Below, piece by piece: positions 6,277 through 27,900 of a DNA stretch of 46,567 bases. The position numbers were made by a program, and so were the translations under genes. Under the pieces are notes generated by a model that made no database searches, was not told the origin of the DNA, and worked only from the letters and a program-made list of their open reading frames with translations. Source of the DNA: a virus; the IMG/VR virus record IMGVR_UViG_3300019776_000980, positions 1 through 46,567 of that record, one strand, 5' to 3'. Numbering within the stretch: position 1 is the first letter of the stretch; each line of letters starts with the position of its first letter.

Positions 6277-7062
6277 ATGGCTACCCAGCAGCCCCTACCG
6301 TCTGAGCTACCCGCCGATACCAAGCCCCTGACCCAGCAGCAGCAACGGTTTGTGGAAGAGTATGCCCAGCACTGGAAGGGAGCCCAGGCCGCCCGCGAGG
6401 CCAACTACAGCGCTGCCCGCGCCAAACAGACTGCCCGCGACCTGTTGAAGGATGAGCGGATTCTGGCCGCCATCAAGGCCCGGGCTATCGAGCTGGGCAT
6501 GAGCCAGGAGGAGGCCACGGTACGCATGAGCCAGTGGGGCCGGGCCTCCATTGAGGATGTGATGGAGAAGGTGGTAGTAGAGTACACCCCTCGCATCCAC
6601 AAGCCCCTGCGGGAAATCGTCGCCGAGTTCAAAGAGCAGATGGAGTTTGAGCAGGAGTTTGCCATTGCGGCCGAAGCCCTCATAACCGATAAGAAGTCGC
6701 AGACGAAGTTTCGGAAAAAGCAGGCCGTCATTCACGCCCTGCGCAAGGTCGAGCTGCTGCGCATGGAAATGGAACTGGCCCGTAAGCCCGATGCCAAACG
6801 CTGGGTAAGTGGCGAGACGATTCCGAAAGAGGAAGTTCGCCTGAGCCTGGTGAAGGTGCTGGAGGCCAAAGCCGGCGGCCTGATCAAGAAGATCACCCCT
6901 ACCCGCTATGGGCTGTCGGTAGAGCTGCACGACGCCAAGGATGCCACTACGACCATGCTCAAGGTGCTGGGCGCCTTCGCTCCGGTAAAAGTAGACCACA
7001 CCACCAACGGCAACGATATGCCCGGCTCCAACATCATGATGCCCGACAATGGCCGCGACTGA
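6277..7062 (+). CDS. Small terminase subunit-like protein (second of a tandem pair)
   Basis: Residues about 15-75 repeat the terminase small-subunit pattern of the preceding gene: LTQQQQRFVEEYAQHWKGAQ, the AAREANYS turn, then LLKDERILAAIKARA. The middle (about 85-185) is a charged helical region, perhaps coiled coil. The tails of both proteins share a KVDHTTNG/YDYTTNG-type motif before the C-terminus, which supports an old duplication. The last bases overlap the next gene (ATG at 7049). As with its neighbour, the matching large subunit is missing. Confidence 0.7.
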   Translation: MATQQPLPSELPADTKPLTQQQQRFVEEYAQHWKGAQAAREANYSAARAKQTARDLLKDERILAAIKARAIELGMSQEEATVRMSQWGRASIEDVMEKVVVEYTPRIHKPLREIVAEFKEQMEFEQEFAIAAEALITDKKSQTKFRKKQAVIHALRKVELLRMEMELARKPDAKRWVSGETIPKEEVRLSLVKVLEAKAGGLIKKITPTRYGLSVELHDAKDATTTMLKVLGAFAPVKVDHTTNGNDMPGSNIMMPDNGRD

Positions 7063-7351
7063 TCTGCTGGATGACTGGGCCTGCGCAGCCCGCTGGGCGG
7101 TAGAAGATGAAGTGGCCGCCGGCATCGCCGAAGCTTACCGGGCCGTCACGTCGTCGGTGCTGGCCGCCGACGCCCGCCTCAACGAACAGGAAGCCCTTCT
7201 GCACGCCGGCTTCTTCGATCAGTACGAACAATGGCTGTTCTGCCAGTATGGCGACCGGCGCAACGGCGGCGAAGGGCTGGGGCCCTGGGGCAGCCGCCAC
7301 GTTCGGGAAATGCTCTCCCCTGGCTGGCACGGCTGGCATAGCAAATCATAA
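7049..7351 (+). CDS. Unknown 100-residue protein overlapping the terminase-like gene
   Basis: It starts inside the upstream gene (14-bp overlap), which suggests coupled translation. The protein is acidic and helical, rich in Ala and Trp, with a Gly/Trp/His-rich C-terminus (SPGWHGWHS). No family is recognised. Small proteins of this kind are common in phage packaging regions. Confidence 0.65.
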   Translation: MAATDLLDDWACAARWAVEDEVAAGIAEAYRAVTSSVLAADARLNEQEALLHAGFFDQYEQWLFCQYGDRRNGGEGLGPWGSRHVREMLSPGWHGWHSKS

Positions 7352-7355
7352 TTCC

Positions 7356-7688
7356 ATGAGCCACACGCAACCCAACGACCTCACCCCGGCTGTTCACCAG
7401 GCCGACCACTTCCACCCCGGCTATCAGGCGGTGCACCGCTGGTTCGGCCTGAGCTACGCTAACTACCTCATCATGCCCCGCGCGCAGCTCCAGTCGATGC
7501 CGGAAGGATGGCAGCAGCGCTTTTCCTCCTGCCTGCAGGAGTTCAGGGCGGCCTTTGCCGGCAGCGAGCAGGCCCGCAGCTACCAGGTGCGGGCAGTTGA
7601 CGCAGAAGGCTGTTATGTCAAGGATCCGGTACCGCACTACGATGGCGGCCGTGCCCTTCTTCCGATCAACCGTGCTGGCCATGAGTAA
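7356..7688 (+). CDS. Unknown 110-residue phage-type protein
   Basis: The ATG at 7356 lies 5 bp after the previous stop; the frame is open further upstream but overlaps the previous gene. A conserved-looking core reads WFGLSYANYLIMPRAQLQSM followed by PEGWQQRFSSCLQEF. I associate this pattern with short uncharacterised proteins of phages and prophages, but give it no function. The C-terminus is charged and probably flexible. Confidence 0.65.
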   Translation: MSHTQPNDLTPAVHQADHFHPGYQAVHRWFGLSYANYLIMPRAQLQSMPEGWQQRFSSCLQEFRAAFAGSEQARSYQVRAVDAEGCYVKDPVPHYDGGRALLPINRAGHE

Positions 7689-7755
7689 CCAGCGCATCCA
7701 TCGGCTACTGCCGGCGCGCGGGACCGTATTCCGTGCGGCCCTGCCTGTCGAATAA
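7681..7755 (+). CDS. Possible 24-residue protein
   Basis: An ATG overlaps the previous stop region and opens a short basic reading frame (MSNQRIHRLLPARG...) ending at 7755. Only the overlap and position between two phage-type genes support it. It could equally be chance. Confidence 0.25.
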   Translation: MSNQRIHRLLPARGTVFRAALPVE

Positions 7756-7790
7756 GCTTTTCAGCGTTTCCCCACCTGCACGCTTCTACA

Positions 7791-7955
7791 ATGAACATTT
7801 CCGCATCACCCCGTAAGCGTCTGGCCACTCGGCGGCGCCAACAACGTCTGGCGGCCCTGGCCGGCCACACCGACCGCCTGTTTGCCTTCTACGCCAAGGC
7901 CTATGCCGAGCGGCCCCGCTACGTCATGCCGCAACGGGCGCTGCTTCAGTACTGA
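7791..7955 (+). CDS. Small basic phage-type protein, 54 residues
   Basis: The frame encodes a very basic N-terminus (SPRKRLATRRRQQRLAAL) followed by an aromatic helix (RLFAFYAKAYAERPRY). It sits between a phage-type gene and a strong terminator 24 bp after the stop, which supports it as the last gene of the terminase-like operon. A nucleic-acid-binding role is possible from charge alone. Confidence 0.5.
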   Translation: MNISASPRKRLATRRRQQRLAALAGHTDRLFAFYAKAYAERPRYVMPQRALLQY

Positions 7956-7978
7956 GCAGCCGCACTTTCTTCCATCAA

Positions 7979-8006
7979 GCCTCCCTCGCCCCAAGGAGGC
8001 TTTTTT
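7979..8006 (+). terminator. Rho-independent terminator ending the terminase-like operon
   Basis: GCCTCC (7979-7984) pairs with GGAGGC (7995-8000) around a 10-base loop and is followed by six T residues (8001-8006). It separates the small-terminase operon from the tape measure gene, which has its own regulatory element. Confidence 0.85.
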
Positions 8007-8093
8007 ATGCCCGTTTACGATGGGTATAGCACATAACCGGCCGCAATCACCCCTCTTTAAGCAGGCTAAGGGTCACTTTTATAACGAAACTAT

Positions 8094-8128
8094 ACGTTAT
8101 ATCTTCTCTTAATATCGTAATTTACGGT
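8094..8128 (+). promoter_or_regulatory. Composite late-region element before the tape measure gene
   Basis: ACGTTATATCTT (8094-8105), an 8-bp spacer, then ATCGTAATTTACGGT (8114-8128), which contains the inverted repeat CGTAA-T-TTACG. The first box matches the palindrome at 5478 in 10 of 12 positions and the spacing is identical. The second box ends 23 bp before the ATG at 8152. Confidence 0.65.
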
Positions 8129-8151
8129 CATTAACATCAACCCAGAGCACG

Positions 8152-11100
8152 ATGGCCGGACCTATTAACTACTCAGATTTATTCGACGGCCTCGGCCCGG
8201 GGGCAGCCGAGCTTCTTGAGTTCACCAAGAATGTAAAAGGCCTCAACACCAACTACAAAAACTTCGCGAAGAACCTGGAAGGAGACTCGCAGAAGATTGC
8301 GGCCGGCCTGGCTACCGTGTTGGCGGCCATCAACGGCACCAAAGCCAAGTTCGAGGACGTCAACGTCGTCAGCCGCAAGAGCCGCACTACGCTGGATGAG
8401 CTGAGCGGCACCATTGCCAAGCTGGCCAAGGAGCAGCAGGATCTGAAGGATCGGATGGCTGGCCTCGGCAAGGTTCAGAAAGACACGGAGGCCTCCACCA
8501 AGGGCCTCAACTCGGCGCTGAAGCAGCAGCAGGATGCGCTGAAGAAAGCGTTTGCGGCGGGTGATATGGAAGCGGCCAAAGCAGCGGCCCGCGAAATCAT
8601 CAAGCTCAAAGCCGAAACCGACAACCTGAGCCGGGCCCTACGCGGTGCCAACTCCGACTTCACCGCGGCGGCCGGCAGCTTTCGGGCCATGGAGAATGAG
8701 GCCCGGCAGCTGGATGCGAAGCTCAAGAGCCTCGCCGGCGGCATGGACAACAACAGCGCGGAGGCTCAGCAGCTCAAAACGCAGTTGGCGGAGGTAAACG
8801 AAAAGCTGCGCACCTTCACCCAGGAAACCGGCGTGGGCTACCGCAACGTGGGCCGATATGCCGAGAGCCTGCGGGAAGGGGTTGCAGCCCTCAACGCCCA
8901 GCGCACGGAGCTCATCGCCAACGCCGCGGCCCTGCGTACGCAGATGCAGGCCACCGGCTTATCAGCGGATCAGCAGGAGCGCCTGCAGCAAGAGCTGAAG
9001 CAGACCGATGCGGAGCTTACCAAGAACTCCAATGCCCTGAAACAGTATGGCGTCGGGGTAAAGAGCAGCGGCGTGTCCACGGCGGGCCTGACCAGTAACC
9101 TCGGCGGGCTGACGCAGAGCCTGGCCGGGGCTTACTACGGCATTCAGGGCGTGGCTACGGCCCTGCAGCAGGGCTTTGAGTCCAACCTGAAGTACAGTGC
9201 CTCGCTGGCCGATGTACGCAAAACGACGGGCCTCACGGCGGAAGCTGCCGAAGAGCTGGCCCAGAGCCTGAAAGAGATACCAACCACTACCTCGCTGGCT
9301 GGCCTTCTGGATATTGCCAAGGTAGCGGGGCAGCTCGGAATCGCGAAGGAGGACATCCTAGCCTTCACCGGGGCCGTGGACGTGGCGGTACAAGCATTAG
9401 GGGATGACTTCGGGGGCGGGGCGGCCGGGGCGGAAGCCATCGCGACCCAGCTGGGCAAAATCGCCAGCGTCTACAAAAAGGAGCTTAGCCCCGACATTGC
9501 CAAAAACCTGCTCTCCATCGGTTCGGCACTGAATGAGGTCGCTGCGACCGGCTCCTCTACGAGCGTATTCATGGCCGACGTAGCGCTGCGCGTGGGCCAG
9601 GTATCGGCCCAGTATGGCGTTGGGCTGAAGAACGTACTCGCCTACTCAGCCGTGCTGGAGGAGCAGGGCAGTACGGCTGAAAAATCCGGAACGAGCCTGA
9701 ACCGTTTTTTCTCCACTCTGGCCGGAAGAACGAAGGCATCCTTCGAAATTGCCAAGCTGGGGGACACCAACCTTACCCTAAAACAGTTCACCAAGCTCGT
9801 AAATTCAGACTTCAATTCTGCCATTCAAGCCTTCCTCCGTGGGCTCAATGCCGGGGGAACATCAACGACAAAAGTCAATGCCCTGCTGGAGACACTGAAG
9901 CTTCAGTCCGGCGAAGCGAAGTCAACCATTCTTGCCCTGGCGCAGAATACGGAGCTGTTTGCCAAACGTCAGGAAACGGCCAACGAGCAGCTGATCTCTG
10001 CGACAAGTCTGGCCGCCGAAGCCGACGTGAAGACGAAAACGCTGGCCGGCTCCTGGGACAAGCTCAAGAACAGCATCGTTTCCACCATCACCAACGGCAA
10101 GGTGGGCGGCTTCTTCAAGGGCATCGTTGATTTTGCCAACAACACCATCAACGAGCTGGGCAAGTTCGGCAAGGCCACCAAGGATACCACCGCTGCCACG
10201 CTGGCCACCGCGCAGTCGAACCGCGTGGCGGCCGAATCGGCTGATGCGTTGCTGAAGCGCTACGAGCAACTCACGGCGAAAGGTGTGAAGCCCACAACCA
10301 AAGGGAAAGAAGAATTAGACCTCATTACGGAGCAACTGACTCAATCCCTGGGGAAATCCGTCTCTTCTATCGACAAGGAGACGGGCGCCCTCATTCTGAA
10401 TGAGAAGGCGGCCCGCGATGCCATCAAACAGAAGATCCTGCTCAGTAACCAAGCCGTTTCCACACTCATCCTGGAAGCCGATAAGCTACAGGAAAGAATC
10501 AAGTTGGAAGAGCTGGCTATCAAGACTGAACAGGGCCGGATCAAGAATCAGGAGAAGCTTCTGGGCCTGACGGTTGAGCAGGCTCGCCAGCGTGTTGTCG
10601 ACTTCACCAACGAAACGGATGATGGAGTAATGAGCGACCGGCTCATAGCGACCGACGAGCTCTATAAGCGCAGTATCGCTTTGGCTGGTTCCTTTCAGAA
10701 CCTGTCTCGCATCAACGCCGAGTACAACCAGAAGCTGGAGGCCATGGACAAGCTGGGCGCCAAGAGTGCCTACCTGGCCGGCGGCTTCACTACTCCGGCT
10801 ATCGACGCCAACAAGGACCTGACCAAGTCCATTGATGATACCGTTGCCGCTGATAAGGCCAAAGCTAAATCAGTAGCCGACGTGGCCGCTGAAGAGTACA
10901 AACGGCGTAAGCAGCTGCTGGAATTTGAGGCGGAAGATTTGGCCCGGCAGGCAAAAAACCCAGCCAACACCGAGGCTATTCGTTTGCGTGCTCTGGAGAA
11001 AGAGAAGGACGTTCGGGTGCAGATTGCCGAGTTGGACCGTAACGAGGGCATCCGTCTGGCCGTGCAAACCAACAAGGATAAGATCGGAGGGGAGCAGGCC

Positions 11101-12615
11101 GCCAACATTGCCCGCCTGACGCTTACCGAGAAGTATAACAACGAGGTACGGCAGCTGGGCATGAAGCTCAGCAAGGACGAAATCGCCCTGCACAATGCCA
11201 CGTTGGAGGCTTTGTCACAGACCGACCGGGTCAACATCGAGCAGCAGATCAAGGTGGCCGAAAACGCCCGCGACAACATCAACAAAACCTACGAGGAGCG
11301 GCAGCAGGCCGCGCAGGATGTGTCCGACTACCAGGTGCAGCTGGCCACGCTCACCCGGGACTCGGAAATACGGGCTGCTGAAGGTGCCCTGGATAAGATA
11401 GCCGCCGCCAATCAGAAGTTCGAACAGGCGAAAGACAATGCCCGCAAAGGCGTGAAGTTCTTCGACTCGGGCAAGGCCATTGATGATATCGAGAAGGACT
11501 ATGCCCGGCAGCAACTCGCCCTGGAGGACGCGCGGGGCAAGAACCTGCTCACGGAGAAGCAGTATCGGGAGAAGCTGGAGACGCTGGACTACCAGCGCGA
11601 GTACACCATCATCGAAGCCCTGGAGCGGGAATATGGCATCACGGAAGATACCCTGCGCCGCAAGTATGAGCTTCGCAAGAAGTACAACGAAGCGGAGTTG
11701 CAGGATGAGCAGGAGGCATTTGATAAACGCATGGAGCTTATCCAGATGGGCCTGGACTTCGTGCAGGAGGCCGGCAATGCGGGCTTCCAGGCAAAGGCCG
11801 AATCACTCAGCCGGGAGCAGGAGTTGAACGAGAAAACCTACGAGTCAGCTACCAGAGCAGCCGGCGAAAACTCCCTGCTGAAGCAACAGGCCGAAGATCA
11901 GTACTTCAAAAAGAAGAATGAGCTGGCCCGCAAGCAGTTCGAGAATGATAAGAAAGCCGCCCTGTTTCAGATTGCGCTTTCGACGGCAATGGGTATTGCC
12001 TCCGTCCTGTCCACTGGCGGCCCGGCCCGGTACGCCGACGCCGGTATCGGTGCCGGCATTCTGATTGCTGGCGTACTTGCTACCGGCGCAGTTCAGGCCG
12101 CCGTGGTGCTGTCCCGTCAGCCTCCCCTGCCCGAATACTTCAAGGGCCGCGACGGTGGTCCCGCCGAGTTTGCCTGGGTGGCTGAACGCGGCCCGGAGCT
12201 TATCGAGGGCAAGAGCGGTGGTAGTCGGCTGGTGGAAAAGAAGCAGGTTACCTACCTGCAAGAGGGCGACAAGGTGCACACGGCTGATAAGACCCGCCAG
12301 ATGCTGGCCCATGTGCCCCAACTTCGGGAGCCGGCTGCGGCCGCCCGCGGTGATATGGAGAATACCACAGAGTACACCCACAAGCTTCAGCAGCAGACCC
12401 AGCAGTACCTGTCCCCCTATGCTCACCAGGAGCGCGACACACGGATGGCCAGAACCATCGTTGAGGGGGTGGTAAATGGAGTAGTCGCCGGCACCCGGCA
12501 GGCCCTGCATGATCAGCCCGCGTACCAGATGACAGAGAAAGGCATCTTCCTGTATACCAGGTCGGCTAATTCGGTCACGAAGCATATCAATGGTCGCCAC
12601 CGGCGCAACGGATAG
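8152..12615 (+). CDS. Phage tail tape measure protein
   Basis: The tape measure sets tail length during assembly of a long-tailed phage and is ejected with the DNA. This one has 1,487 residues: N-terminal coiled coils rich in Ala, Lys and Gln (to about 300), a TP901-type core (about 330-640, around SLADVRKTTGLTAEAAEEL and AGQLGIAKEDILAFTGAVD), a second long coiled-coil region (about 900-1260), and two hydrophobic stretches (about 1269-1320). By the usual 1.5 angstrom per residue rule it would span a tail of roughly 200 nm. It has its own regulatory element and terminator. The genes normally found between terminase and tape measure (large terminase, portal, capsid, tail tube) are absent. A decayed relative lies at 23960-24389. 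Confidence 0.9.
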   Translation: MAGPINYSDLFDGLGPGAAELLEFTKNVKGLNTNYKNFAKNLEGDSQKIAAGLATVLAAINGTKAKFEDVNVVSRKSRTTLDELSGTIAKLAKEQQDLKDRMAGLGKVQKDTEASTKGLNSALKQQQDALKKAFAAGDMEAAKAAAREIIKLKAETDNLSRALRGANSDFTAAAGSFRAMENEARQLDAKLKSLAGGMDNNSAEAQQLKTQLAEVNEKLRTFTQETGVGYRNVGRYAESLREGVAALNAQRTELIANAAALRTQMQATGLSADQQERLQQELKQTDAELTKNSNALKQYGVGVKSSGVSTAGLTSNLGGLTQSLAGAYYGIQGVATALQQGFESNLKYSASLADVRKTTGLTAEAAEELAQSLKEIPTTTSLAGLLDIAKVAGQLGIAKEDILAFTGAVDVAVQALGDDFGGGAAGAEAIATQLGKIASVYKKELSPDIAKNLLSIGSALNEVAATGSSTSVFMADVALRVGQVSAQYGVGLKNVLAYSAVLEEQGSTAEKSGTSLNRFFSTLAGRTKASFEIAKLGDTNLTLKQFTKLVNSDFNSAIQAFLRGLNAGGTSTTKVNALLETLKLQSGEAKSTILALAQNTELFAKRQETANEQLISATSLAAEADVKTKTLAGSWDKLKNSIVSTITNGKVGGFFKGIVDFANNTINELGKFGKATKDTTAATLATAQSNRVAAESADALLKRYEQLTAKGVKPTTKGKEELDLITEQLTQSLGKSVSSIDKETGALILNEKAARDAIKQKILLSNQAVSTLILEADKLQERIKLEELAIKTEQGRIKNQEKLLGLTVEQARQRVVDFTNETDDGVMSDRLIATDELYKRSIALAGSFQNLSRINAEYNQKLEAMDKLGAKSAYLAGGFTTPAIDANKDLTKSIDDTVAADKAKAKSVADVAAEEYKRRKQLLEFEAEDLARQAKNPANTEAIRLRALEKEKDVRVQIAELDRNEGIRLAVQTNKDKIGGEQAANIARLTLTEKYNNEVRQLGMKLSKDEIALHNATLEALSQTDRVNIEQQIKVAENARDNINKTYEERQQAAQDVSDYQVQLATLTRDSEIRAAEGALDKIAAANQKFEQAKDNARKGVKFFDSGKAIDDIEKDYARQQLALEDARGKNLLTEKQYREKLETLDYQREYTIIEALEREYGITEDTLRRKYELRKKYNEAELQDEQEAFDKRMELIQMGLDFVQEAGNAGFQAKAESLSREQELNEKTYESATRAAGENSLLKQQAEDQYFKKKNELARKQFENDKKAALFQIALSTAMGIASVLSTGGPARYADAGIGAGILIAGVLATGAVQAAVVLSRQPPLPEYFKGRDGGPAEFAWVAERGPELIEGKSGGSRLVEKKQVTYLQEGDKVHTADKTRQMLAHVPQLREPAAAARGDMENTTEYTHKLQQQTQQYLSPYAHQERDTRMARTIVEGVVNGVVAGTRQALHDQPAYQMTEKGIFLYTRSANSVTKHINGRHRRNG

Positions 12616-12868
12616 CAGCTGCTGCAACAAAAAGCCCCTCTCACTCTGAGAGGGGCTTTTTGCTTTTAAGGGCCAGCCTGCGTCGGGCGCCGCCGGCTTG
12701 TTCAGGCCCAGCGTTTCAACCACGTACTCACTGATGCCCCGGTTTTGCAGCCTGGGCCAGCTCGCCCAGCCGCTTCCACTCCTCATCGGTCATGGAGATG
12801 TTGTGCCCGCGCTTATGCCGCGCTGGGTCTTTCGTCGGGCGGCCTTGGCGCCTGGGTGCTTGTTCCAT
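12616..12868 (-). pseudogene. Frameshifted ribbon-helix-helix (CopG/Arc-like) gene
   Basis: Reading leftward from 12868, the frame gives MEQAPRRQGRPTKDP, HNISMTDEEWKRLGELAQAA and then a premature stop. In the next frame it continues NRGISEYVVETLGLN, exactly where a ribbon-helix-helix protein should continue. One extra base in the T-run at 12743-12746 (A-run on the coding strand) explains the break. After the family-like end, the frame runs through the tape measure terminator without a stop, so the 3' end was probably lost as well. A sequencing error could explain the frameshift but not the lost end. Confidence 0.65.
12633..12662 (+). terminator. Terminator after the tape measure gene
   Basis: AGCCCCTCTC (12633-12642) and GAGAGGGGCT (12648-12657) form a perfect 10-bp stem with a 5-base loop, flanked by A residues upstream and T residues downstream, so it could work in both directions. 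Confidence 0.9.
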
Positions 12869-12980
12869 GCCCCAAAGGATGTAGCTTCTGTACTGATGTG
12901 GTTTACTCTGTTAATCAAGTTTCCCTCGACCATAGATACCTTTTTATGCTCGTCTACGATGAATTCAGAGCATCGATGAT

Positions 12981-13032
12981 CTCACTAATAAAAAAGGTCA
13001 CTGTACATACAGTGACCTTTTTTATTAGTGAG
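12981..13032. terminator. Perfect 25-bp inverted repeat, bidirectional terminator
   Basis: Arms 12981-13005 and 13008-13032 are exact reverse complements with two bases between them, and each contains a run of A or T residues. It covers the stop codon of the leftward ATPase gene (13025-13027). A bidirectional terminator is the simple reading; a mobile-element end is an alternative. Confidence 0.8.
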
Positions 13033-15118
13033 ATTTAAAATCAATTTTCAATTTTTCAAACAGCACATTATTTCTTTTCACGGAATCATCTAATATCTTA
13101 TCGTAAGATATGACCTCCATATATGTATTCAATTTTTCTTTAAGTGCAAATAAACCATTACCTTCCACCATAGGCGTAAATTCATGCATTTCCTCAATTT
13201 CGTTTTTAAGAGAAGGTGTAATATCGCAAATCAAATAAGCAAAAAACCTGCAATTTTTTGATACAAGAATAGGCCTACCATTAGGATGCACTGCGTTTCC
13301 GCTTCTTATTTCTCGTATATAATTTTTAATCTGATTAATAGGATCTTTTTCACCTGAGTATTCCTTACGCATAGCTCTTTTAAACTCTAGTATAACCATA
13401 GAATCATATTCCGTAAACTTCTCGCCATCAGAATACGCTACAGGTATATTGAATGATTCTTTCTCTCCAGTTGATACAGCCTTACCTACTAAAACATCTG
13501 GTTTTTTACTCTTCTTCTTAGACTTATCTAGAGATTGATCCGAAGCAACAAACCGATGATACGAAAGTCGTTCATCGATAAGCCATAAATTTTGAGACAT
13601 ACCTAACATAGTTTCAGAAGATTCACCCATTGGAAATATCAGGTTATGAATTTCTTGTTCCCAAGGATATGTACCATCACCTCTTTTTGAAAGTACTCTT
13701 TCAAAAATTTCGATAAGCATTCTTCTATGAATAATATACTCAGATAGCTCAGTTTTTGTAATAGCATTAAGTTTCCCTACAAGTAGGTTAAAGCCATTTT
13801 TGTATTCTGACAACACTTCTGGAGTCGCATTAGCTTCAGATATGTTGTCCATTTGAATCTTAAGATCATTGGTTTCCCTTCGAGCGTCAAGAAGCATATC
13901 ATATTTAGCTTTTTGCAAAGCTAAATTCAATTTGTTTTTATCATGAAGCTGCGCAGCTGTTATGGAATCAATGACATCATTAAATCCCAGCAATGGTATA
14001 TAGTGTGGAAAGTCATTAAAAACAATCTGCTCTAATCGCGTTTTTTTTTCTTCCCTTAAACCATTCAGATAAACCTCAAACTGTTCCTTGATGATTTCGG
14101 CAGCTTCGCTCTCTATCTGTTTAAGAGTAATCTCATTGAACACATCTGCATTAGTTTCTGCATTATTCCCAGTTCGTAGAAAAAATTTAGTTCTCTCATT
14201 ATTTACATGGCTATCGAGATAATCACTAGTCACTAGAGCCTTAATGCAAAAAATCTCTTCTGCCTGTAAATCTATAAGTGGCTCTACCAAATTAGGTATA
14301 TACTTGCTAATAGAGGTCGAAGTAACAACTCTATCATCCCCACTCAAATATATAGAATGATTAGAAGATTTTTCTTTAGCTTTTACTTTCAATAACCCAA
14401 CTGAAAATGTATAACCATTAATGTTAAACGAATCACTTTCTTTATCCAGAAGATAATAATTTAAAAACTTATCATTTATATTCACTTCAATTGTTGGATT
14501 AACACTAACATCACGCAATGTTATTGATGGGCAACTGTTCGACACTAAACGTATTATCAAATGTTCAATAATCTTATCTGAAATTTCATCAAACGTTCTA
14601 GGAAATTTTTCCAAATATTCTCCTTTTATATGATTTAGGCTTACAATGGTTTCCAGAGTACCTTTAGAAGTTGTCTCAAATTTTTCCTCAGCAATAGCTT
14701 CTTTATTATTAATAAATTGAAAACTACGGCGCAGATGGGTTCCGTTATGAACAAAAACACTGCGGATACTTGCATGATCAAAAACTTTTAGCCAAGAGAA
14801 CCTACCTATACCTTTACCACCTCTATTTAATTTATAAGTAGAATCCGAACTTAAGAAAGAGGTGAAATTATCTTCCCCAAACCCAATACCGTTATCTGTA
14901 ATAACAATTGAATCAATGGGTAAAACAGAATCTTTTTGACCTTCAAATAAGCTTTTACTTCTTATCAATTCAATTAGAATCTTACCATCTTCTATTTTGG
15001 CATCCTCAATACTTTGCATCGAGTTATAGATAGCCTCGAATAAGGCCATCACCCCATCTTTGCTAGCTAATCTAGTGTTGTGGACCTTGCCAACAACATC
15101 AGCATTCATCTTTGACAT
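13025..15118 (-). CDS. GHKL-type ATPase with a C-terminal PD-(D/E)XK-like nuclease
   Basis: A 697-residue protein. Residues about 20-200 carry the GHKL (Hsp90/MutL/MORC) ATP-binding motifs: N-box EAIYNSM (E28, N32), DNGIGFG (D75), and GGKGIGRF (100-107). A long helical middle (about 330-500) follows. Near the C-terminus, PDVLVG and then SMVILEFKRAMRKEY (E578, K580) look like a PD-(D/E)XK nuclease core. ATPase plus nuclease architecture is typical of defence proteins, where nucleotide-driven clamp closure could gate cleavage. The gene is much more AT-rich than its neighbours, pointing to transfer. It lies 53 bp downstream of a small ribbon-helix-helix gene on the same strand. Target and trigger are unknown. 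Confidence 0.75.
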   Translation of the reverse strand: MSKMNADVVGKVHNTRLASKDGVMALFEAIYNSMQSIEDAKIEDGKILIELIRSKSLFEGQKDSVLPIDSIVITDNGIGFGEDNFTSFLSSDSTYKLNRGGKGIGRFSWLKVFDHASIRSVFVHNGTHLRRSFQFINNKEAIAEEKFETTSKGTLETIVSLNHIKGEYLEKFPRTFDEISDKIIEHLIIRLVSNSCPSITLRDVSVNPTIEVNINDKFLNYYLLDKESDSFNINGYTFSVGLLKVKAKEKSSNHSIYLSGDDRVVTSTSISKYIPNLVEPLIDLQAEEIFCIKALVTSDYLDSHVNNERTKFFLRTGNNAETNADVFNEITLKQIESEAAEIIKEQFEVYLNGLREEKKTRLEQIVFNDFPHYIPLLGFNDVIDSITAAQLHDKNKLNLALQKAKYDMLLDARRETNDLKIQMDNISEANATPEVLSEYKNGFNLLVGKLNAITKTELSEYIIHRRMLIEIFERVLSKRGDGTYPWEQEIHNLIFPMGESSETMLGMSQNLWLIDERLSYHRFVASDQSLDKSKKKSKKPDVLVGKAVSTGEKESFNIPVAYSDGEKFTEYDSMVILEFKRAMRKEYSGEKDPINQIKNYIREIRSGNAVHPNGRPILVSKNCRFFAYLICDITPSLKNEIEEMHEFTPMVEGNGLFALKEKLNTYMEVISYDKILDDSVKRNNVLFEKLKIDFKSH

Positions 15119-15171
15119 ACAGCTTGATATTACTTAGAGTGAGCGTGTTGTACCAGCGAAAATATTGATAG

Positions 15172-15333
15172 TCACTTGATGCCTAATCGACGAGCTTCGT
15201 CATGAGCTAGCATCTTCAGCAAAGTGGCTGTCTTTACCCCTCTAGCATTGGCAACTTCTTCAAAGAGTTGCTTCTCTTCTAGGGTAACCTCAACATTAAT
15301 TTGTGGTTTACGAGGCTTTCCTGGTGTTCTCAT
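15172..15333 (-). CDS. Small ribbon-helix-helix-like regulator, 53 residues
   Basis: The product reads MRTPGKPRKPQINVEVTLEE..., with a basic N-terminal strand region and two helices (KQLFEEVANARGVKTATLLK), as in small CopG/Arc-type DNA-binding proteins. The start codon lies 4 bp after a TATATTTG promoter box, so the message may be nearly leaderless. The TACCCTAG/CTAGGGTA sites upstream are the likely operator. With the ATPase-nuclease gene it forms an apparent two-gene operon. Confidence 0.65.
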   Translation of the reverse strand: MRTPGKPRKPQINVEVTLEEKQLFEEVANARGVKTATLLKMLAHDEARRLGIK

Positions 15334-15346
15334 GCTTCAAATATAA

Positions 15347-15416
15347 TACCCTAGGAATAACCTTGAAAAATACTTTACAGCAAGCTTGATTATAGTAAAA
15401 CACTAGGGTATATTTG
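15347..15416. promoter_or_regulatory. Divergent promoters with paired operator half-sites
   Basis: TACCCTAG (15347-15354) and its reverse complement CTAGGGTA (15403-15410) face each other. Leftward, TTTC-N19-TATATTTG drives the small regulator, with the half-site between the two boxes. Rightward, CTTG-N20-TATATTTG (box at 15409-15416) points to the gene at 15515, and its half-site touches the -7 box. The symmetry suggests one repressor controls both directions. Confidence 0.65.
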
Positions 15417-15441
15417 ATCTACCAAAGGGCTAGAAATAGGG

Positions 15442-15471
15442 AGGGGCCAGCTGCGCTAACAGCTGACCCCT
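15442..15471. terminator. Leader hairpin between the rightward promoter and its gene
   Basis: AGGGGCCAGCTG (15442-15453) pairs with CAGCTGACCCCT (15460-15471) with one mismatch and a 6-base loop. No T-run follows. It sits in the presumed leader of the 15515 gene and may attenuate or protect that message. Confidence 0.5.
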
Positions 15472-15514
15472 CAGTAACCGAACCAAGGCCCGATCACTTT
15501 CACAGTCCAAAGGT

Positions 15515-16000
15515 ATGCAAACTGCAACCAACCTTGTACCTGCCGTTCGGCTGGTCCTCTCCCTCGTGCGCCGTCAAATCATGGAGCGCATGGCCAGTAC
15601 CGTCTTTACGCCTGCTGAACGCCTGCGCGCCAACGACAGCGTGTACCAGTGTGACGACGAAGCGCAATTAGTCCTATGGCATCGCAACGTATGCCGTGTT
15701 GAATTAGAGCGTACAGCCACACAGCCTATCATGCCTGTGCTACCGCTCGACTTGCAGGCAACGACCTCGCAGCAGGCAGAAATCGTGCGCCTGTGCAGCC
15801 ACCCCGCCGTCGCACGTCGCGACGCGTCGGCATTGCTCTGTGGTCTGCGCCAACTCACCTACCCACAAGCTCTACGGACTATCAACCAACTCATCTCTAC
15901 GATCTGGACGCATGATGCGGGTGCCATCACATCTTATGCCCAACTGGGCTCACTGCTGGATAGCGTCAGTATACTACACGCACAGTCTCCAACTGCATAG
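15515..16000 (+). CDS. Unknown 161-residue protein
   Basis: No family is recognised. The protein is soluble and probably helical, with one Cys-containing segment (DSVYQCDDEAQLVLWHRNVC). Its promoter faces away from the ATPase-nuclease operon and shares operator half-sites with it, so coordinated expression is inferred. A link to that system is possible but not shown. Confidence 0.6.
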   Translation: MQTATNLVPAVRLVLSLVRRQIMERMASTVFTPAERLRANDSVYQCDDEAQLVLWHRNVCRVELERTATQPIMPVLPLDLQATTSQQAEIVRLCSHPAVARRDASALLCGLRQLTYPQALRTINQLISTIWTHDAGAITSYAQLGSLLDSVSILHAQSPTA

Positions 16001-16011
16001 TCCCTTTCGTC

Positions 16012-16110
16012 ATGCAGTTTTCTTTCACCCAGGCGGTTCGCAGAGTGCGGGCCGCCTGGAAAGTCACGGCCAAGTCTGACAAGCAGGGCAGGAGGAGCCA
16101 TGCCCGCTAA
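16012..16110 (+). CDS. Possible 32-residue basic protein
   Basis: A short frame, MQFSFTQAVRRVRAAWKV then a Lys/Arg-rich end, overlaps the next gene by 11 bp. The N-terminus resembles the start of small SH3-fold proteins common on Bacteroidota mobile DNA, so it may be a truncated remnant. A palindrome (16029-16036 with 16052-16059) lies within it. Confidence 0.25.
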   Translation: MQFSFTQAVRRVRAAWKVTAKSDKQGRRSHAR

Positions 16111-17047
16111 ACTCACTACGCAGCAGTTCATTGAAAAGGCTCGTGCCGTGCATGGAATGACGTACGACTACTCACAAGTGGTCTATAATGCACGCAGGAA
16201 GAAGGTAATCATCCGTTGTAGTGTCCATGGCCCATTTGAACAAACCGCCAATGGTCATCTAAATGGCAATGGGTGTGACGCGTGTGGGGGCACAAAAACA
16301 CTTGATACACCCGCGTTTCTAGCTAGAGCAATTGCTATTCATGGAGATGTATATGACTATTCCTTAGCCCAATACTCTTCACGGCAGACCTTAATCAAAA
16401 TCATCTGTAAAGTGCATGGTCTGTTTGAGCAAATGCCTAATAACCATTTTAGTGGCGCCGGTTGCCCTAGATGTGCAAGGTTGGCAGTTGGGCGCAGGAA
16501 TGCTCATCAAACAGAGGTTTTTGTTCGAAAAGCCACTGAAGTGCACGGAAGCCGGTACGACTATTCGCTGGTCAACTACCAAACTACTGAAACAAAAATT
16601 CTTATCCGGTGCCAACTGCACGGGGAGTTTAAACAGACCCCGCATGCTCATCTGATTGGTCAGGGGTGTAGAGCGTGTGGCTATGAATCAATAGGTAGTC
16701 CTCAACATAGTAACACTGCGGGCGCGTGGCAGCGCAAAGACTGGATACGAGCGCGCAAAGGAAGAAAATCCAAACTGTATGTAGTCAGGCTTTACAATGC
16801 AGAGGAGTCATTTTATAAAGTAGGTATTACTCACCGCTCTGTAGAAGCACGATTTACGAAGAGAAACATGCCTTATTCTATTGAAATAGTAACTGTTTAT
16901 GAGTCAGAAGATGCAGGAATGATTTATGATAAAGAGCGACAGATTAAACGTCAATTAAGGCACCTTAAGTACCAACCTAAGATTCCTTTTCCAGGTCAGC
17001 ACGAATGCATCAAATCTGTCAGTAGCATTTCAGTTGCCCTTTCATAG
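16100..17047 (+). CDS. GIY-YIG nuclease with three DUF723-like zinc-finger repeats
   Basis: Three tandem units of about 55 residues (about 9-63, 72-125, 140-193) each read F..KA..VHG..YDYS, then a C..HG pair and a GC..C pair. The likely zinc ligands are C40/H43/C59/C62, C103/H106/C122/C125 and C171/H174/C190/C193. Residues about 226-290 form a GIY-YIG-like domain (LYVVRLYN, KVGIT, R251). DNA-binding fingers joined to such a nuclease are typical of homing-endonuclease-like mobile genes. The start is set by a GGAGGAG Shine-Dalgarno sequence 4 bp upstream, unusual in Bacteroidota and a hint of foreign origin. Confidence 0.75.
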   Translation: MPAKLTTQQFIEKARAVHGMTYDYSQVVYNARRKKVIIRCSVHGPFEQTANGHLNGNGCDACGGTKTLDTPAFLARAIAIHGDVYDYSLAQYSSRQTLIKIICKVHGLFEQMPNNHFSGAGCPRCARLAVGRRNAHQTEVFVRKATEVHGSRYDYSLVNYQTTETKILIRCQLHGEFKQTPHAHLIGQGCRACGYESIGSPQHSNTAGAWQRKDWIRARKGRKSKLYVVRLYNAEESFYKVGITHRSVEARFTKRNMPYSIEIVTVYESEDAGMIYDKERQIKRQLRHLKYQPKIPFPGQHECIKSVSSISVALS

Positions 17048-17051
17048 AACC

Positions 17052-17140
17052 CGAAAGTAGCTGATCATAGATAAGGACAGAAGGGTAATTGTTTTGAGAG
17101 TTACTACTCCTCTGCTCTTATCTATGATCAGCTGCTTTCG
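17052..17140. terminator. Long inverted repeat between convergent genes
   Basis: Arms 17052-17075 and 17117-17140 match in 23 of 24 positions around a 41-base loop. The right arm contains the stop codon of the leftward gene (17118-17120). It probably terminates transcription from both sides. The left arm may be an inverted copy of the leftward gene's 3' end. Confidence 0.65.
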
Positions 17141-17903
17141 TTACTTGCATCTTTTTCGTGATATAATTCAACCTCCCTTGAAAGGAGAACAACGTCATCT
17201 TCTCCGGCTCCGGAGTGCCGTGATCAGCCATCACCCCGCAGAGTTGCGAGAAGGCAATACGACGTAGCACCAGGGCATTTTCCGGATGCCCCGTTTCGAA
17301 TACTTCCGGCTCCATCATGTCCAGCAGCGCATTGTCCACATCTTCGATGGTTTTCAGGTGCTTCGGATCCTCATTCAGCAGGTAATCGCACAATGCCAAA
17401 CCCCTCCGCTTCAGGTGAATCGCCTTGTTCATCTCCAGGCCATTCTGGTCATATCGGGACGGGAAGTGTTCGGCCAGCTCATTGCCAAATGCTTCGTGCA
17501 CTGAATCCAGAGACGCTTCCACCTGCTCATCTGTCAGGCCCAACACCTTAAGTTCAGTAAGCAGGGACTCCAGCCCATATTCTGTAAGGTCGTTCGCGGC
17601 TACTCCATCCACACTCTCTACCAGCACGGCAAACGCCATTCGCCGCGCGGAGAAGTTCGTGTCAACAAAATGCTGGGCGTAGTGGGCATTACACTTCTCT
17701 AAAAACTCCTCCTGCTCCTTCCCCTGCCGGGCGCCGAAGCGAGCGGCCAGCTGCTCGTGACGCGCCACGTCCTGGGGGGTTGAGCCTACGCCGGCATCCA
17801 GCGCCATGTAGCACTGATATTCCATGTGGCGCCCGGCGGGCAGTTCCATGATGGATTGATAATAGCGAAGGCTATGCTGGGGGCTGAGCTGTATCGAGCG
17901 CAT
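17118..17903 (-). CDS. Unknown 261-residue protein of the tail locus
   Basis: No family is recognised. It is an acidic, helical protein without signal peptide or membrane segment (core around YGLESLLTELKVLGLTDEQV). The frame is open to 17963 but that start would lie over the regulatory palindrome; the ATG at 17903 (MRSIQLSPQH) is preferred. It is divergent from the large possible tail gene at 17975 and is fronted, in the correct orientation, by the same composite element as the terminase-like and tape-measure genes. Confidence 0.65.
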   Translation of the reverse strand: MRSIQLSPQHSLRYYQSIMELPAGRHMEYQCYMALDAGVGSTPQDVARHEQLAARFGARQGKEQEEFLEKCNAHYAQHFVDTNFSARRMAFAVLVESVDGVAANDLTEYGLESLLTELKVLGLTDEQVEASLDSVHEAFGNELAEHFPSRYDQNGLEMNKAIHLKRRGLALCDYLLNEDPKHLKTIEDVDNALLDMMEPEVFETGHPENALVLRRIAFSQLCGVMADHGTPEPEKMTLFSFQGRLNYITKKMQVTKAADHR

Positions 17904-17938
17904 GAGTGAAAGGGGAAAGGTAAGATTGTGTAATAAAC

Positions 17939-17973
17939 GCCGTAATTTACGGCATAAATACACGATATTTCGT
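17939..17973 (-). promoter_or_regulatory. Composite late-region element between divergent tail-locus genes
   Basis: On the reverse strand it reads ACGAAATATCGT, an 8-bp spacer, then GCCGTAAATTACGGC, a 15-bp inverted repeat that is perfect except for the central base. This matches the element at 5478-5512 in order and spacing. On the forward strand it ends 1 bp before the ATG at 17975, so it could govern both genes. Confidence 0.7.
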
Positions 17974-17974
17974 C

Positions 17975-20251
17975 ATGCTAGGTACCAACGCTCCCCAGTT
18001 CCGCTTCATACTGAACTCTGACATCTTTACTCCAGGCCGCAAGCTGCTGCAGCACGACCCGATTGGATGGGATAGCATGGGCCTGACGATTCACCGGGAT
18101 CAGAAGTACCACGGTATTGCCACTGAGTACAACAGCGAAACCCTGGGCTTTATCAAGGACGGTAAGCAGTACCTGGAACAGGCAAAAGACAATCGGGGCA
18201 TTGAGGCCGACATTGATCTGGAGGTGCAGATATACCGGCCCAATGAGTTCTACTGGGACACCTACCGGCATTATCGGCTCGACCTGACTGCGGCGGAAGA
18301 AACGGCTACGGAATTTCGGTGTGGGTTGGACAACTCGGGCCTGATGCAGAAGTTCCTCAACCGCGACGATACGAAGGTGGATTTACTGGGCCGCGACAAC
18401 GTGAGCGGCGGCGCTTCCTTCCCCCCGCAGCCGGTGGCCCTGGAGTTGCACTCACGCGCTATTTATCAGCGCTTCGACTCGCGTATCACGGAGTCGCCGG
18501 TAAGGGCTGCTCCAAACTTTGTTACCAATGGCGAGTCTCGGTTCCAGATTATGTATTTCGGCTTTGGCGAGCCGAACATCAATGATTTCAAGCTGGAGCC
18601 TGTCTACGGCGGCTTCTTCACCCAGCCCTCGGGCGTAAACAATGCCGAGCAGCCGATCTATACGACGAAAGAGGCGGGCATTTTTGATATCAAAATCAAT
18701 ATTCTCTGCGAGCTAATCGTCAGTCGTACCGGCAATGGCTTCGGCGACTTCGATAAGGTTTCCTGCGAAGTGTTCTTCCGCATCAACGACGAACAGCCAG
18801 TACGCCTTTTCTTTTTCAATGACACGGCCGGGGGTGGTACATTGCGTCGGCAGATTTCGGCCTACTACCCCATATTCCGACGTCTGGACATTGGGGACAA
18901 GATCTACGTCTATGGCCGAATCCATGTGTACGACATCAACGAGGGCATTTTTGGGTATCGGTTCCAGGTAGATGCCAACTTCTTGCCCGGCTCGTTCATG
19001 ACGATCAATGCCGAGACTACTACCACGCCGACGGTAGCCAATGGCCTGTTGATTTACGAGGCGCTGGAAAAGCTTGCCCGCGACATTACCGACGAGCACA
19101 ATACGTTCCGATCCAGCTTCTTCGGCCGCACGGATTCCGTGCATCCGTACCCGGCCGATGGCCCTGGCAGCCTGTTATTCGTAACGGGAGGCTTCCAGTT
19201 GCGCGGGTTTCCACTGGATAAGAAATCCCTCTTTGCCAGCTGGCAGGAGTTGATTGACTCGCTTAGTGCCATCTACAACCTAGGCGTGGGCGTAGAAAAG
19301 CTGCCTGATGGGCGGGAAGTGATTGTCGTCGAAGAGATGTCGTACTTCTACTCGGATGAGATTGTACTGGACCTGACCAACCCAGATGAAGGCTACAGTC
19401 ATACGCGCTTACCCGATACGGCCGGCGAGGATGGGCAAGAGGCCAAAAAGGTTACTGTTGCCGCCGACCACTACAATTCGGTTGATATCGGCTATCAGAA
19501 ATGGCGGCCCAATCAGATCAACGGCCTGGAGGAGTTCAACACCCGGCACGAATATGCGCTGCCCCTGACGCAGGTAAAGAACAAGTACACCCAGCTGAGC
19601 AGCTACATCACGGCCGGCCACTACATCGAAACAGTGCGCCGGGACCGGTACGATATTACCGCCACCACCGATACCAGCTCGGATGATGAAGGCTTCCTGA
19701 TCTGCGTGATCCGCAATCCGGACATTCTCAAGCCGTTCGTAACAGAGCGGGATCAGCTGGCCGTAGATACGGTCGAGGGCATCTACTCTCCGGATACCGT
19801 CTACAACTTACGCCTCAGCCCGAAACGGATGCTGCTGCGTCACGCACCAACACTTGCCGCCGGCCTGATCAGGATTAGCGACGGGGGAGTGAAGTTCAGA
19901 TTTGGGGAAGGCAATTCGGAGCTTAAAAGCCGACTTGCGGGGGAAGAGTTGCCCATCCGAGAAAAGGCGGATGTGCGCATGACTGCCCTCAACCGCAACG
20001 ACCCACAATACCAGGAGTACAACCTGAGCATGCCCGAACCGATATGGTTGCCGATGCAGTACAGCTTTGATCACCCGCTGCGACATACGCAGGTGCAGCA
20101 GGTTCTGGAAAATCCGCGCGGGCGGGTGCGTTTCCGCGACCACCGGGGCCGCGCCTGCGAGGGTTGGATCATTGATTTGAAGCATGATGCCGCCAAAAAC
20201 ATGGCGTCATTCACGTTGAAGGCCTGCGCTCGTTTGGTTGGGGGTAATTAA
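17975..20251 (+). CDS. Large possible phage tail-tip or baseplate protein
   Basis: A 758-residue soluble protein with no signal peptide, rich in beta-type sequence and aromatic residues. I do not recognise a named domain. A phage structural role is inferred from its size, the operator shared with the tape measure gene, and its position as the next high-GC phage-like gene after the tape measure once the 12.6-17.1 kb insertion is ignored. The C-terminal 100 residues (QVLENPRGRVRFRDHRGRAC, then EGWIIDLKHD) resemble a small beta-domain joined to the main body. Its stop overlaps the convergent gene at 20248 by a few bases. Confidence 0.55.
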   Translation: MLGTNAPQFRFILNSDIFTPGRKLLQHDPIGWDSMGLTIHRDQKYHGIATEYNSETLGFIKDGKQYLEQAKDNRGIEADIDLEVQIYRPNEFYWDTYRHYRLDLTAAEETATEFRCGLDNSGLMQKFLNRDDTKVDLLGRDNVSGGASFPPQPVALELHSRAIYQRFDSRITESPVRAAPNFVTNGESRFQIMYFGFGEPNINDFKLEPVYGGFFTQPSGVNNAEQPIYTTKEAGIFDIKINILCELIVSRTGNGFGDFDKVSCEVFFRINDEQPVRLFFFNDTAGGGTLRRQISAYYPIFRRLDIGDKIYVYGRIHVYDINEGIFGYRFQVDANFLPGSFMTINAETTTTPTVANGLLIYEALEKLARDITDEHNTFRSSFFGRTDSVHPYPADGPGSLLFVTGGFQLRGFPLDKKSLFASWQELIDSLSAIYNLGVGVEKLPDGREVIVVEEMSYFYSDEIVLDLTNPDEGYSHTRLPDTAGEDGQEAKKVTVAADHYNSVDIGYQKWRPNQINGLEEFNTRHEYALPLTQVKNKYTQLSSYITAGHYIETVRRDRYDITATTDTSSDDEGFLICVIRNPDILKPFVTERDQLAVDTVEGIYSPDTVYNLRLSPKRMLLRHAPTLAAGLIRISDGGVKFRFGEGNSELKSRLAGEELPIREKADVRMTALNRNDPQYQEYNLSMPEPIWLPMQYSFDHPLRHTQVQQVLENPRGRVRFRDHRGRACEGWIIDLKHDAAKNMASFTLKACARLVGGN

Positions 20252-24974: not shown

Positions 24975-27900
24975 ATGCAGACCGCTCGCCAACAGGCGCT
25001 CAACTACGTCCGCGCGCTGCCGGCCGATGAGCCCCGCCCCCTCTTTATTATCGTAGTCGACGTTGGTTACTGCATCGACATCTACAGCAACTTCGTGGGC
25101 GTTGGGGACTCGTTCATTCCCTTCCCCGACCAGAGCAGCTTCCGCCTGCTGCTGCCGGCCTTAGCTGAGGAAAGTAACCGCGAGCTGCTGCGTCAAATCT
25201 TCCTGGACCCGCAGCAGCTGGACCCCAGTCGCCGGGCCGCCCGTGTGACCCGGGAACTGGCCGGCTACCTCGCGGGAGTTTCCTCCCAGCTCGAACGGGC
25301 TGGCCATTCCCCTGACCTGGTCGCGCAGTTTCTCATGCGCTGCCTGTTTACCATGTTCAGCGAGGACGTCGGTCTTATCCCAAAGGCGTCCTTCACCGGC
25401 CTGCTGCAACAGTATGCTACGCCTGAGCTGCGGCAGCATCTACCGGATGCGTTGCAGAGCCTCTGGCACAAGATGGACACCGGTGGCTTCTCCACCGAGC
25501 TCAAGGCCCGGGTACCGCGCTTCAACGGCAAGCTCTTCCACGACGCGACGGCCCTGCCACTCACGGCTGCGCAGATCGAACTACTATTGAAGGCCGCCGA
25601 GGCCGATTGGACGGAGGTAGAACCGGCCATCTTCGGTACGTTGCTGGAGCGAGCACTGGACCCAAAGGAACGCCACCGGCTAGGTGCCCACTATACCCCA
25701 CGGCGCTACGTGGAGCGGCTGATCCTGCCGACCGTGCTGGACCCGCTACGGCGCGAGTGGGCCGCGGCACAGGCAGCCAGTGCCCGCCGCCTGGAAGACA
25801 AGAAGCCCAAGGAGGCCCGGGCCGAACTCGTACGCTTTCACAAGCGACTGACGAGTCTACGCATTTTGGATCCGGCCTGCGGGTCAGGTAACTTTCTGTA
25901 CGTGACCCTGGAGCACCTCAAACGGTTGGAGGGGGAAGTACTGACGGCCATCAACAGCTATGGACATACCGGCCTGCTTGATCTGGGAGGAGGCACCACC
26001 GTGGGCCCGCAACAGTTCCTGGGGCTGGAGCTCAACCCGCGTGCGGCAACGGTGGCGGACGTAGTGCTGCGTATTGGGTACCTGCAGTGGCATATTCGCA
26101 CCTATGGCCTGAGTGAGTTACGCGAGCCGTTGCTGGATGAGTACCAGAACATTCGCCAGCAGGACGCGGCCCTGCAGCATGACCCACCCGTGCCCCGTCT
26201 TGACGCCCAAGGCCAGCCCGTGACGCGCTGGGACGGCACCACCCGCTTGCACCCGGCCACCGGCCAGCCCGTGCCTGACGAAACCGCCCGCACGCCCGTA
26301 CTCGACTACCCTGACGCTAAACCTGCCGAGTGGCCCCAGGCCGATTTCATCGTAGGTAACCCGCCGTTTGTGGGGCCGGCCCGCATGCGCGACGCCCTTG
26401 GCGACGGCTACACCGAAGCTCTACGCAAAGCCTACAAAGGCAAAGTGCCCGATTCGGCCGATCTCGTCATGTATTGGTGGTACAATGCCGCCGCCGCCGT
26501 GCAGCGCGGGGCCTCGGAGCGGTTCGGCTTCATTACCACCAACAGCCTCAAGCAGACCTTCAACCGCCGGGTAATGCAGCCCTTTCTAGAAGGTGAACCG
26601 GGCCCGCTTACCCTCACCTTCACCGTGCCCGACCATCCGTGGGTAGACGCTGGCGACGGAGCCGCCGTACGCATTGCCATGACCGTAGCCGAGCGTACCC
26701 TGGGTATGCCTCCGTTGGGTCAGTTGTTGATAGTGAAAACAGAAACTGCGGCGGAAGGTGAGGATGCGGCTGACGTTACGTTTGCGGAGCAGCAAGGCCG
26801 GATATTATCTGATTTGTCTATCGGGGCTGAGCTGGACAGTGCAAAAGCCATGAAAGCTAATGAAGGTCTTTCAAGCCCTGGCGTGAAACTGCATGGTGCA
26901 GGATTCATTGTTGCCCAGGATAAAGCTCAACAACTAGGGCTTGGCTCTATAAAAGGTCTGGAAAACCATATTCGCCACTACCTAAACGGTCAGGATTTCA
27001 CTGGCAAATCACGCAAAGCAATGGTTATTGATTTGTTTGGTTTGACCTCTAATGACGTACTGACACGTTTTCCAAGCGTCTATCAGCATTTAGTTGAGAA
27101 TGTAAAACCGGAGCGTGATGCCAAAGGCAATACTAAAGATGGTGCTGGGTACGCTAAGTTTTGGTGGCTCCACGGCAAGCCGCGTCAGGAAATGCGAAAG
27201 ATGCTGGAAGGCCTACCGCATTACATTGGCACTGTTGAAACCGCAAAGCATCGTACGTTTCAGTTTCTTGGTTCGGACATTTTACCTGACAACAAGCTGT
27301 GTGTCATTGGCTTGAGTGATGCTCGTTACTTGGGTGTGCTTTCAAGCAAAATCCATGTTGTTTGGGCAATGGCGGCAGGTAGTCGTTTGGGGGTTGGGAA
27401 TGATTCAGTTTACGTAAAATCCCGTTGTTTTGACCCGTTCCCATTTCCAGCAGCCAATGTGGACCAGCAAGCGCGCATCCGGGAGCTGGCTGAACAGCTC
27501 GACGCTCACCGCAAGCGCCAGCAGGCCCAGCACCCCGCCCTCACACTCACCGACCTCTACAACGTGGTGGAGAAACTACGCGCTGGCCAGCCCCTCACCA
27601 CGTCCAAAGAGCAAACCATCAACCAGCAGGGCCTGGCCTCCGTCGTCCTGAGCCTACACCAGCAGCTCGATGCTGCCGTCGCTGCTGCCTACGGCTGGCC
27701 CGCAGACCTGCCCGACGCAGATATCCTCACCCGCTTGGTGCGACTCAACCACGAACGGGCCCGAGAGGAGCAGGCTGGCCACGTGCGTTACTTGCGCCCT
27801 GCCTACCAGGCTCCTGAGCTGCAGCAGTCGGCACTGTCGTTACCGACCATTACGGCAACGGATGCTACGACCACCGTCACGGACATGCAGCCCTGGCCGG

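Follow-up and report, generated by a model that had tools for sequence, protein, structure and literature searches.

A block lying among the phage tail genes of a virus-derived record raises the question of whether it encodes an anti-phage defence operon, as had been predicted from the letters of the DNA, and which of its genes would belong to such a system. The block lies in what we call the window, the complete 46,567-nucleotide stretch of IMG/VR record IMGVR_UViG_3300019776_000980, and comprises a gene for a putative ATPase-nuclease fusion, a small regulator-like gene ahead of it and a further gene, starting at 15515, that had been proposed as a possible partner.

The host element and the inserted block

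The 46,567-base record carries a 99-bp direct terminal overlap, so that the element is a circle of 46,468 bp. Genes for a Mob_Pre relaxase, a Rep3 initiator, ParA and Fic are present alongside phage genes (two small-terminase-like genes, the tape measure and virion proteins), and the element is therefore a mix of plasmid and phage. In the scanned ORFs, none could be recognised as a large terminase, portal or major capsid gene. Carriage by a mobile element, as originally proposed, is thus borne out, with the block being cargo of a circular phage/plasmid element. The same element encodes at 24975-28085 an MmeI-like methyltransferase with Mtase, helicase spacer and TRD domains, in which the N-terminal MmeI nuclease domain was undetected and which is possibly truncated. 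Additionally, a 19.8-kb Flavobacterium circular record (L175, 1-19757) has a tail-type structural protein in common with the window, contains ParA and DnaB-like helicase genes and seems to be a smaller element with a comparable mix of genes.

The block falls, as predicted, between phage tail genes, since the tape-measure gene (8152-12615) ends at 12615 and a virion structural gene (17975-20251) starts at 17975. In two relatives, Tenacibaculum phage JQ and a circular record from Flavobacterium, only 0-3 bp separate the corresponding genes, and the interval 12616-17974 is therefore best read as an insertion at the junction of tape-measure and virion gene. The AT-richness of the ATPase-nuclease gene was also recognised correctly, its GC content being 0.331 versus 0.589 in the tape-measure gene and 0.555 in the 17975 gene. 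Scanning viral contigs with the 17975 protein revealed no syntenic contigs, and a DNA-level search of the 12616-17974 insert against plasmids returned no close copy. Besides the ATPase-nuclease, the inserted block holds a homing-type endonuclease (DUF723/T5orf172-like, phrog_681; 16100-17047) with relatives in 758 phage records, and an ORF on the minus strand matching a virion protein family (17118-17963). The designation as a defence island needs qualification, as the block contains a single defence gene, although the homing-type endonuclease at 16100 accompanies it. The 16100 and 17118 genes converge on a 36-nt inverted repeat (86%; 17052-17140), which probably serves as a two-way terminator.

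Domain architecture and comparison with known systems

The minus-strand gene at 13025-15118 is a real ORF of 697 aa, annotated from the ORF itself, alignment, AlphaFold2, Foldseek and hhalign as a GHKL ATPase-nuclease of paraMORC3 / Shedu type I-D-like appearance. It contains all the motifs originally quoted, including the Hsp90/MutL-type ATP motifs (N-box E28/N32, DNGIGFG and GGKGIGRF), and its C-terminal domain has the PD-(D/E)XK residues E487, D541 and E578-x-K580. Across 95 aligned homologues, no variation was seen at N32, D75, G77, G79, G100, G103, G105, R106, E487, E578 or K580 and hardly any at E28 and D541; the ATP and nuclease motifs are therefore not due to chance. From the N-terminus, a GHKL ATPase domain (about residues 1-165) is followed by an S5/transducer domain (about 166-320), long helices (about 332-476) and a PD-(D/E)XK nuclease domain (about 480-692). 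A perfect 27-bp inverted repeat with a 2-nt loop at 12979-13034, found by repeat search and RNA folding (-39.1 kcal/mol, z -13.8), overlaps the stop codon and is the transcription terminator of the ATPase-nuclease gene.

The whole protein was modelled by AlphaFold2 with a pLDDT of 91.6, and Foldseek with this model led to Hsp90/TRAP1, SMCHD1 and GyrB. When the C-terminal 228 residues were modelled separately (pLDDT 88.7), the search against nuclease folds that had been suggested as a check placed PD-(D/E)XK nucleases (McrC, Cas4, NucS) first, albeit with weak matches (best E 8e-3, TM 0.27). Furthermore, hhalign of the C-terminus against Shedu proteins (P 7e-5, probability 63%) brought E, D, ExK, Q and the terminal TYD-L into register, in order. 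Conserved residues and predicted folds together thus sustain the proposed fusion of a GHKL ATPase to a PD-(D/E)XK-like nuclease.

Of 70 family members scanned with Pfam, 46 gave a match to HATPase_c and 42 one to HATPase_c_3; the window protein matched HATPase_c_3 at E 7e-4, below the Pfam cut-off. The Pfam model SduA_C was not matched by the window protein even at E 1, but directly by two of the 70 members (best E 0.0014). Searches of PDB sequences with phmmer and hmmsearch yielded nothing useful for the ATPase-nuclease. In PADLOC and NCBIfam, the window protein matched Cas5 and MutL weakly and over the helical or transducer region; these matches were discarded, that to Cas5 being judged a chance one. 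Overall, the family is largely missed by the PADLOC 2.0.0, NCBIfam and Pfam libraries.

Two described groups resemble this protein in architecture. The first is paraMORC3, a group set up by Iyer, Abhiman and Aravind (2008, PMC2292703) for GHKL-S5 proteins whose C-terminus carries an E-D-ExK nuclease; it is known from Bacteroidetes and proteobacteria, and some members stand alone. The defining parts are present in the window protein, namely intact GHKL ATP motifs with an S5/transducer domain (alignment, AlphaFold2, Foldseek) and a C-terminal E-D-ExK domain of restriction-endonuclease fold (95-member alignment, weak fold matches), and no difference in architecture was found relative to paraMORC3 (PMC2292703). 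The second counterpart is VcSduA from the Vibrio cholerae WASA VSP-II, classed as Shedu type I-D and likened to paraMORC3 by its authors (PMC12137116), which as a single gene guards against Drexlerviridae and phage X29 and whose protection is abolished by E27A or K557A (PMC12137116). Both VcSduA and the window protein are single proteins with an N-terminal GHKL ATPase, a clamp-like middle and a C-terminal PD-(D/E)xK nuclease; the catalytic Glu is E27 in VcSduA and E28 in the window protein, and the ExK Lys is K557 and K580, respectively. Gammaproteobacterial family members match the VcSduA numbering, with E27 combined with K556 in a Vibrio fluvialis member and with K558 in Acinetobacter and Endozoicomonas members. 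A patchy distribution on mobile islands is likewise common to VcSduA and the family of the window protein. In contrast to VcSduA, the window protein has 697 aa, K580 and a longer nuclease loop, lacks a detectable SduA_C match by HMM, and has its gene, preceded by a ribbon-helix-helix (RHH) gene, on a circular phage/plasmid element that is Hymenobacter-like in origin.

Canonical Shedu (SduA, DUF4263) is remotely similar in its nuclease core, including E, D, ExK, Q and the terminal TYD-L motif, but has no GHKL ATPase, and the profile similarity is weak. Prokaryotic MORC, MutL and Hsp90 GHKL ATPases share the fold over the first about 320 residues, yet are not known to carry a fused PD-(D/E)XK domain of this type (PMC2292703). 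By predicted architecture and residue numbering, rather than by sequence comparison with VcSduA, the window protein is assigned to the paraMORC3 / Shedu type I-D kind; the ATPase-nuclease belongs to an already described family and is not a new candidate system.

Family distribution and genomic neighbourhoods

Full-length homologues were found at no fewer than 477 loci in genome contigs, on 55 plasmids and, by profile scan, in 30 viral contigs; a scan of viral contigs with the single sequence gave no relatives, although the profile scan did find them. A phage search identified one phage carrying a family member. In phage vB_RanS_PJN03 the family member (L003, 2485-4509) is labelled N-acetylmuramoyl-L-alanine amidase, apparently a misannotation. 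The closest relatives, L130 (57% identity) and L131 (56%), are both from Hymenobacteraceae and group with the window protein in a FastTree phylogeny with support 1.0, and 10 of 204 Hymenobacteraceae genomes contain a family member, the tenth of these being a borderline match at the limit of E 0.001. To our knowledge, no member of this Hymenobacteraceae branch of VcSduA-like GHKL-nucleases has been tested.

The neighbourhood survey of homologues proposed earlier revealed a defence-rich environment. The flanks of 17 family loci matched 157 PADLOC models at E 1e-10, including Thoeris, type IIG R-M and PARIS AriA, compared with 2 in 17 paired control regions on the same contigs, a ratio of model matches rather than of genes, because one protein can match several models. 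On plasmids, AbiE, CBASS, type I R-M, Shedu and SIR2 are among the neighbours of family members. In one Vibrio fluvialis plasmid (L006, 6619-10013), a type I R-M operon is followed by a canonical Shedu gene that overlaps the start of the family member, giving two Shedu-like nucleases in succession.

These neighbourhoods bear on the view that the protein is a MutL-like DNA-repair or maintenance enzyme of the phage or plasmid rather than a defence protein. Such a role would fit a GHKL-nuclease architecture common to MutL and topoisomerases, but we regard it as extremely unlikely considering the patchy distribution (10 of 204 Hymenobacteraceae genomes), the defence-rich surroundings of the family loci and the proven defence by the like protein VcSduA (PMC12137116).

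Gene order at the homologous loci points to a possible connection with restriction-modification. An adjacent ORF on the same strand lies downstream in 29 and upstream in 21 of 119 loci, and the largest cluster of such ORFs is type I hsdS (eight linked by BLAST), confirmed as Methylase_S by Pfam in seven loci. The L130 gene has hsdM on one side and hsdS on the other within a type I R-M operon (6456-14613) and overlaps hsdS by 8 bp, and in another locus (L075) the family member sits between hsdS and hsdR. This hsdS coupling recurs in other phyla. Accordingly, the ATPase-nuclease could be an R-M accessory that acts together with R-M enzymes, of type I or another type, and reads their methylation or handles DNA that they translocate; here its partner in trans would be the MmeI-type methyltransferase at 24975-28085. 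The position of the closest relative, the hsdS neighbours at the seven confirmed loci, hsdR next to the L075 member, the methyltransferase on the same element and the placement of the broader family in R-M systems by Iyer et al. (2008; PMC2292703) would agree with this role. Nevertheless, the second closest relative, L131, stands alone, most of the 119 loci have no adjacent hsdS, and VcSduA is protective as a single gene (PMC12137116), and an accessory role in R-M appears unlikely.

The upstream control region and a proposed mode of action

The gene preceding the ATPase-nuclease (15172-15333, minus strand) encodes a 53-aa RHH-like protein, a probable repressor, and would be the first gene of a two-gene transcript; its Pfam matches to RHH-type models are sub-threshold. 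It lies upstream on the same strand with a gap of 53 nt, in which no strong structure was found. The motif TACCCTAG occurs three times in the window, all within 15279-15410 (expected 0.86; at least three in 2 of 100 shuffles), and one of these copies falls within the RHH ORF. The other two, lying upstream, are parts of a longer inverted repeat, TCAAATATAATACCCTAG / CTAGGGTATATTTGA, which agrees with the paired half-sites reported initially and spans a promoter-like site. The operator-like arm TCAAATATAATACCCTAG (15337-15354) overlaps the -10-like TATATT of this minus-strand site (15369-15340), and the arm CTAGGGTATATTTGA (15403-15417) is an inverted copy of it with a 3-nt deletion. A promoter scan gave 11 sites versus 10.6 in shuffles, i.e., no excess. 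The shared strand, the 53-nt gap and the position of the inverted repeats over the promoter make it plausible that the RHH protein controls its own expression.

RHH proteins are frequent DNA-binding domains of antitoxins, and the small RHH gene, which precedes the ATPase-nuclease gene by 53 nt in the same orientation, together with its inverted repeats, could therefore denote a toxin-antitoxin-like or abortive infection system in which an antitoxin-type regulator holds a killing nuclease that is freed upon infection. We consider this very unlikely: no RHH relative was found beside about 120 homologous loci, the closest two included, the plasmid relatives are unlinked to the ATPase-nuclease family, and 53 aa leave little space for a toxin-binding region. 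RHH relatives do exist on four Hymenobacter plasmids, and in the three plasmid regions inspected they are not located beside a family member. TACCCTAG is absent from the plasmid regions with RHH relatives, and the operator is thus without conservation support. Taken together, the lack of RHH genes near homologues, the unlinked plasmid relatives and the absence of TACCCTAG there indicate that the RHH gene is probably a local, plasmid-derived regulator. The pairing of RHH gene and ATPase-nuclease was seen on this element alone, and a conserved RHH-nuclease system was consequently dropped; from the predicted regulator, the upstream RHH-like ORF itself stands, but not its role as a conserved part.

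The suggested partnership with the 15515 gene found no support either. This gene (15515-16000) is an orphan ORF with no match in Pfam, PHROG, PADLOC, NCBIfam or the plasmids searched, and a 14-bp GC-rich hairpin (15441-15472, z -5.0) parts it from the control region that the two sides had been thought to share.

Overall, we consider it probable that the protein acts on its own as a defence nuclease of the paraMORC3 / Shedu type I-D kind, including a clamp mechanism and RHH repression. The defence-type reading originally given is upheld by membership in a known kind of family, the defence-rich flanks and the VcSduA counterpart (PMC12137116). By analogy, ATP binding by the N-terminal GHKL domains would close the dimer, the transducer and long-helix middle would act as a DNA-sensing clamp, and closure would license the C-terminal PD-(D/E)XK domain to cleave invading phage or rival plasmid DNA. 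The outcome would be direct restriction that dispenses with a methylation-based self/non-self test; DNA rather than RNA as substrate, and restriction rather than abortive infection, are likewise proposed by analogy. Outside this core machine, the RHH protein would be a probable local repressor binding the inverted TACCCTAG repeats over the shared promoter; an RHH companion is not described for paraMORC3 in the parts of PMC2292703 consulted. We infer the dimer clamp, DNA as the target, the trigger and RHH repression from these comparisons.

A more far-reaching and rather improbable version would place the GHKL-nuclease of this phage-plasmid hybrid under a dedicated plasmid-type RHH repressor responsive to entry or copy number, so that the locus would work as an inducible inter-element exclusion device; for the family at large, the repeated hsdS coupling of relatives would mean that type I R-M complexes serve this ATPase-nuclease as sensor. 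For the stand-alone defence nuclease that we favour, our data suggest that VcSduA-like GHKL-nucleases form a large mobile defence family extending to phage/plasmid elements of Hymenobacteraceae, and the repeated hsdS coupling of its relatives offers a testable lead on how the ATPase is activated.
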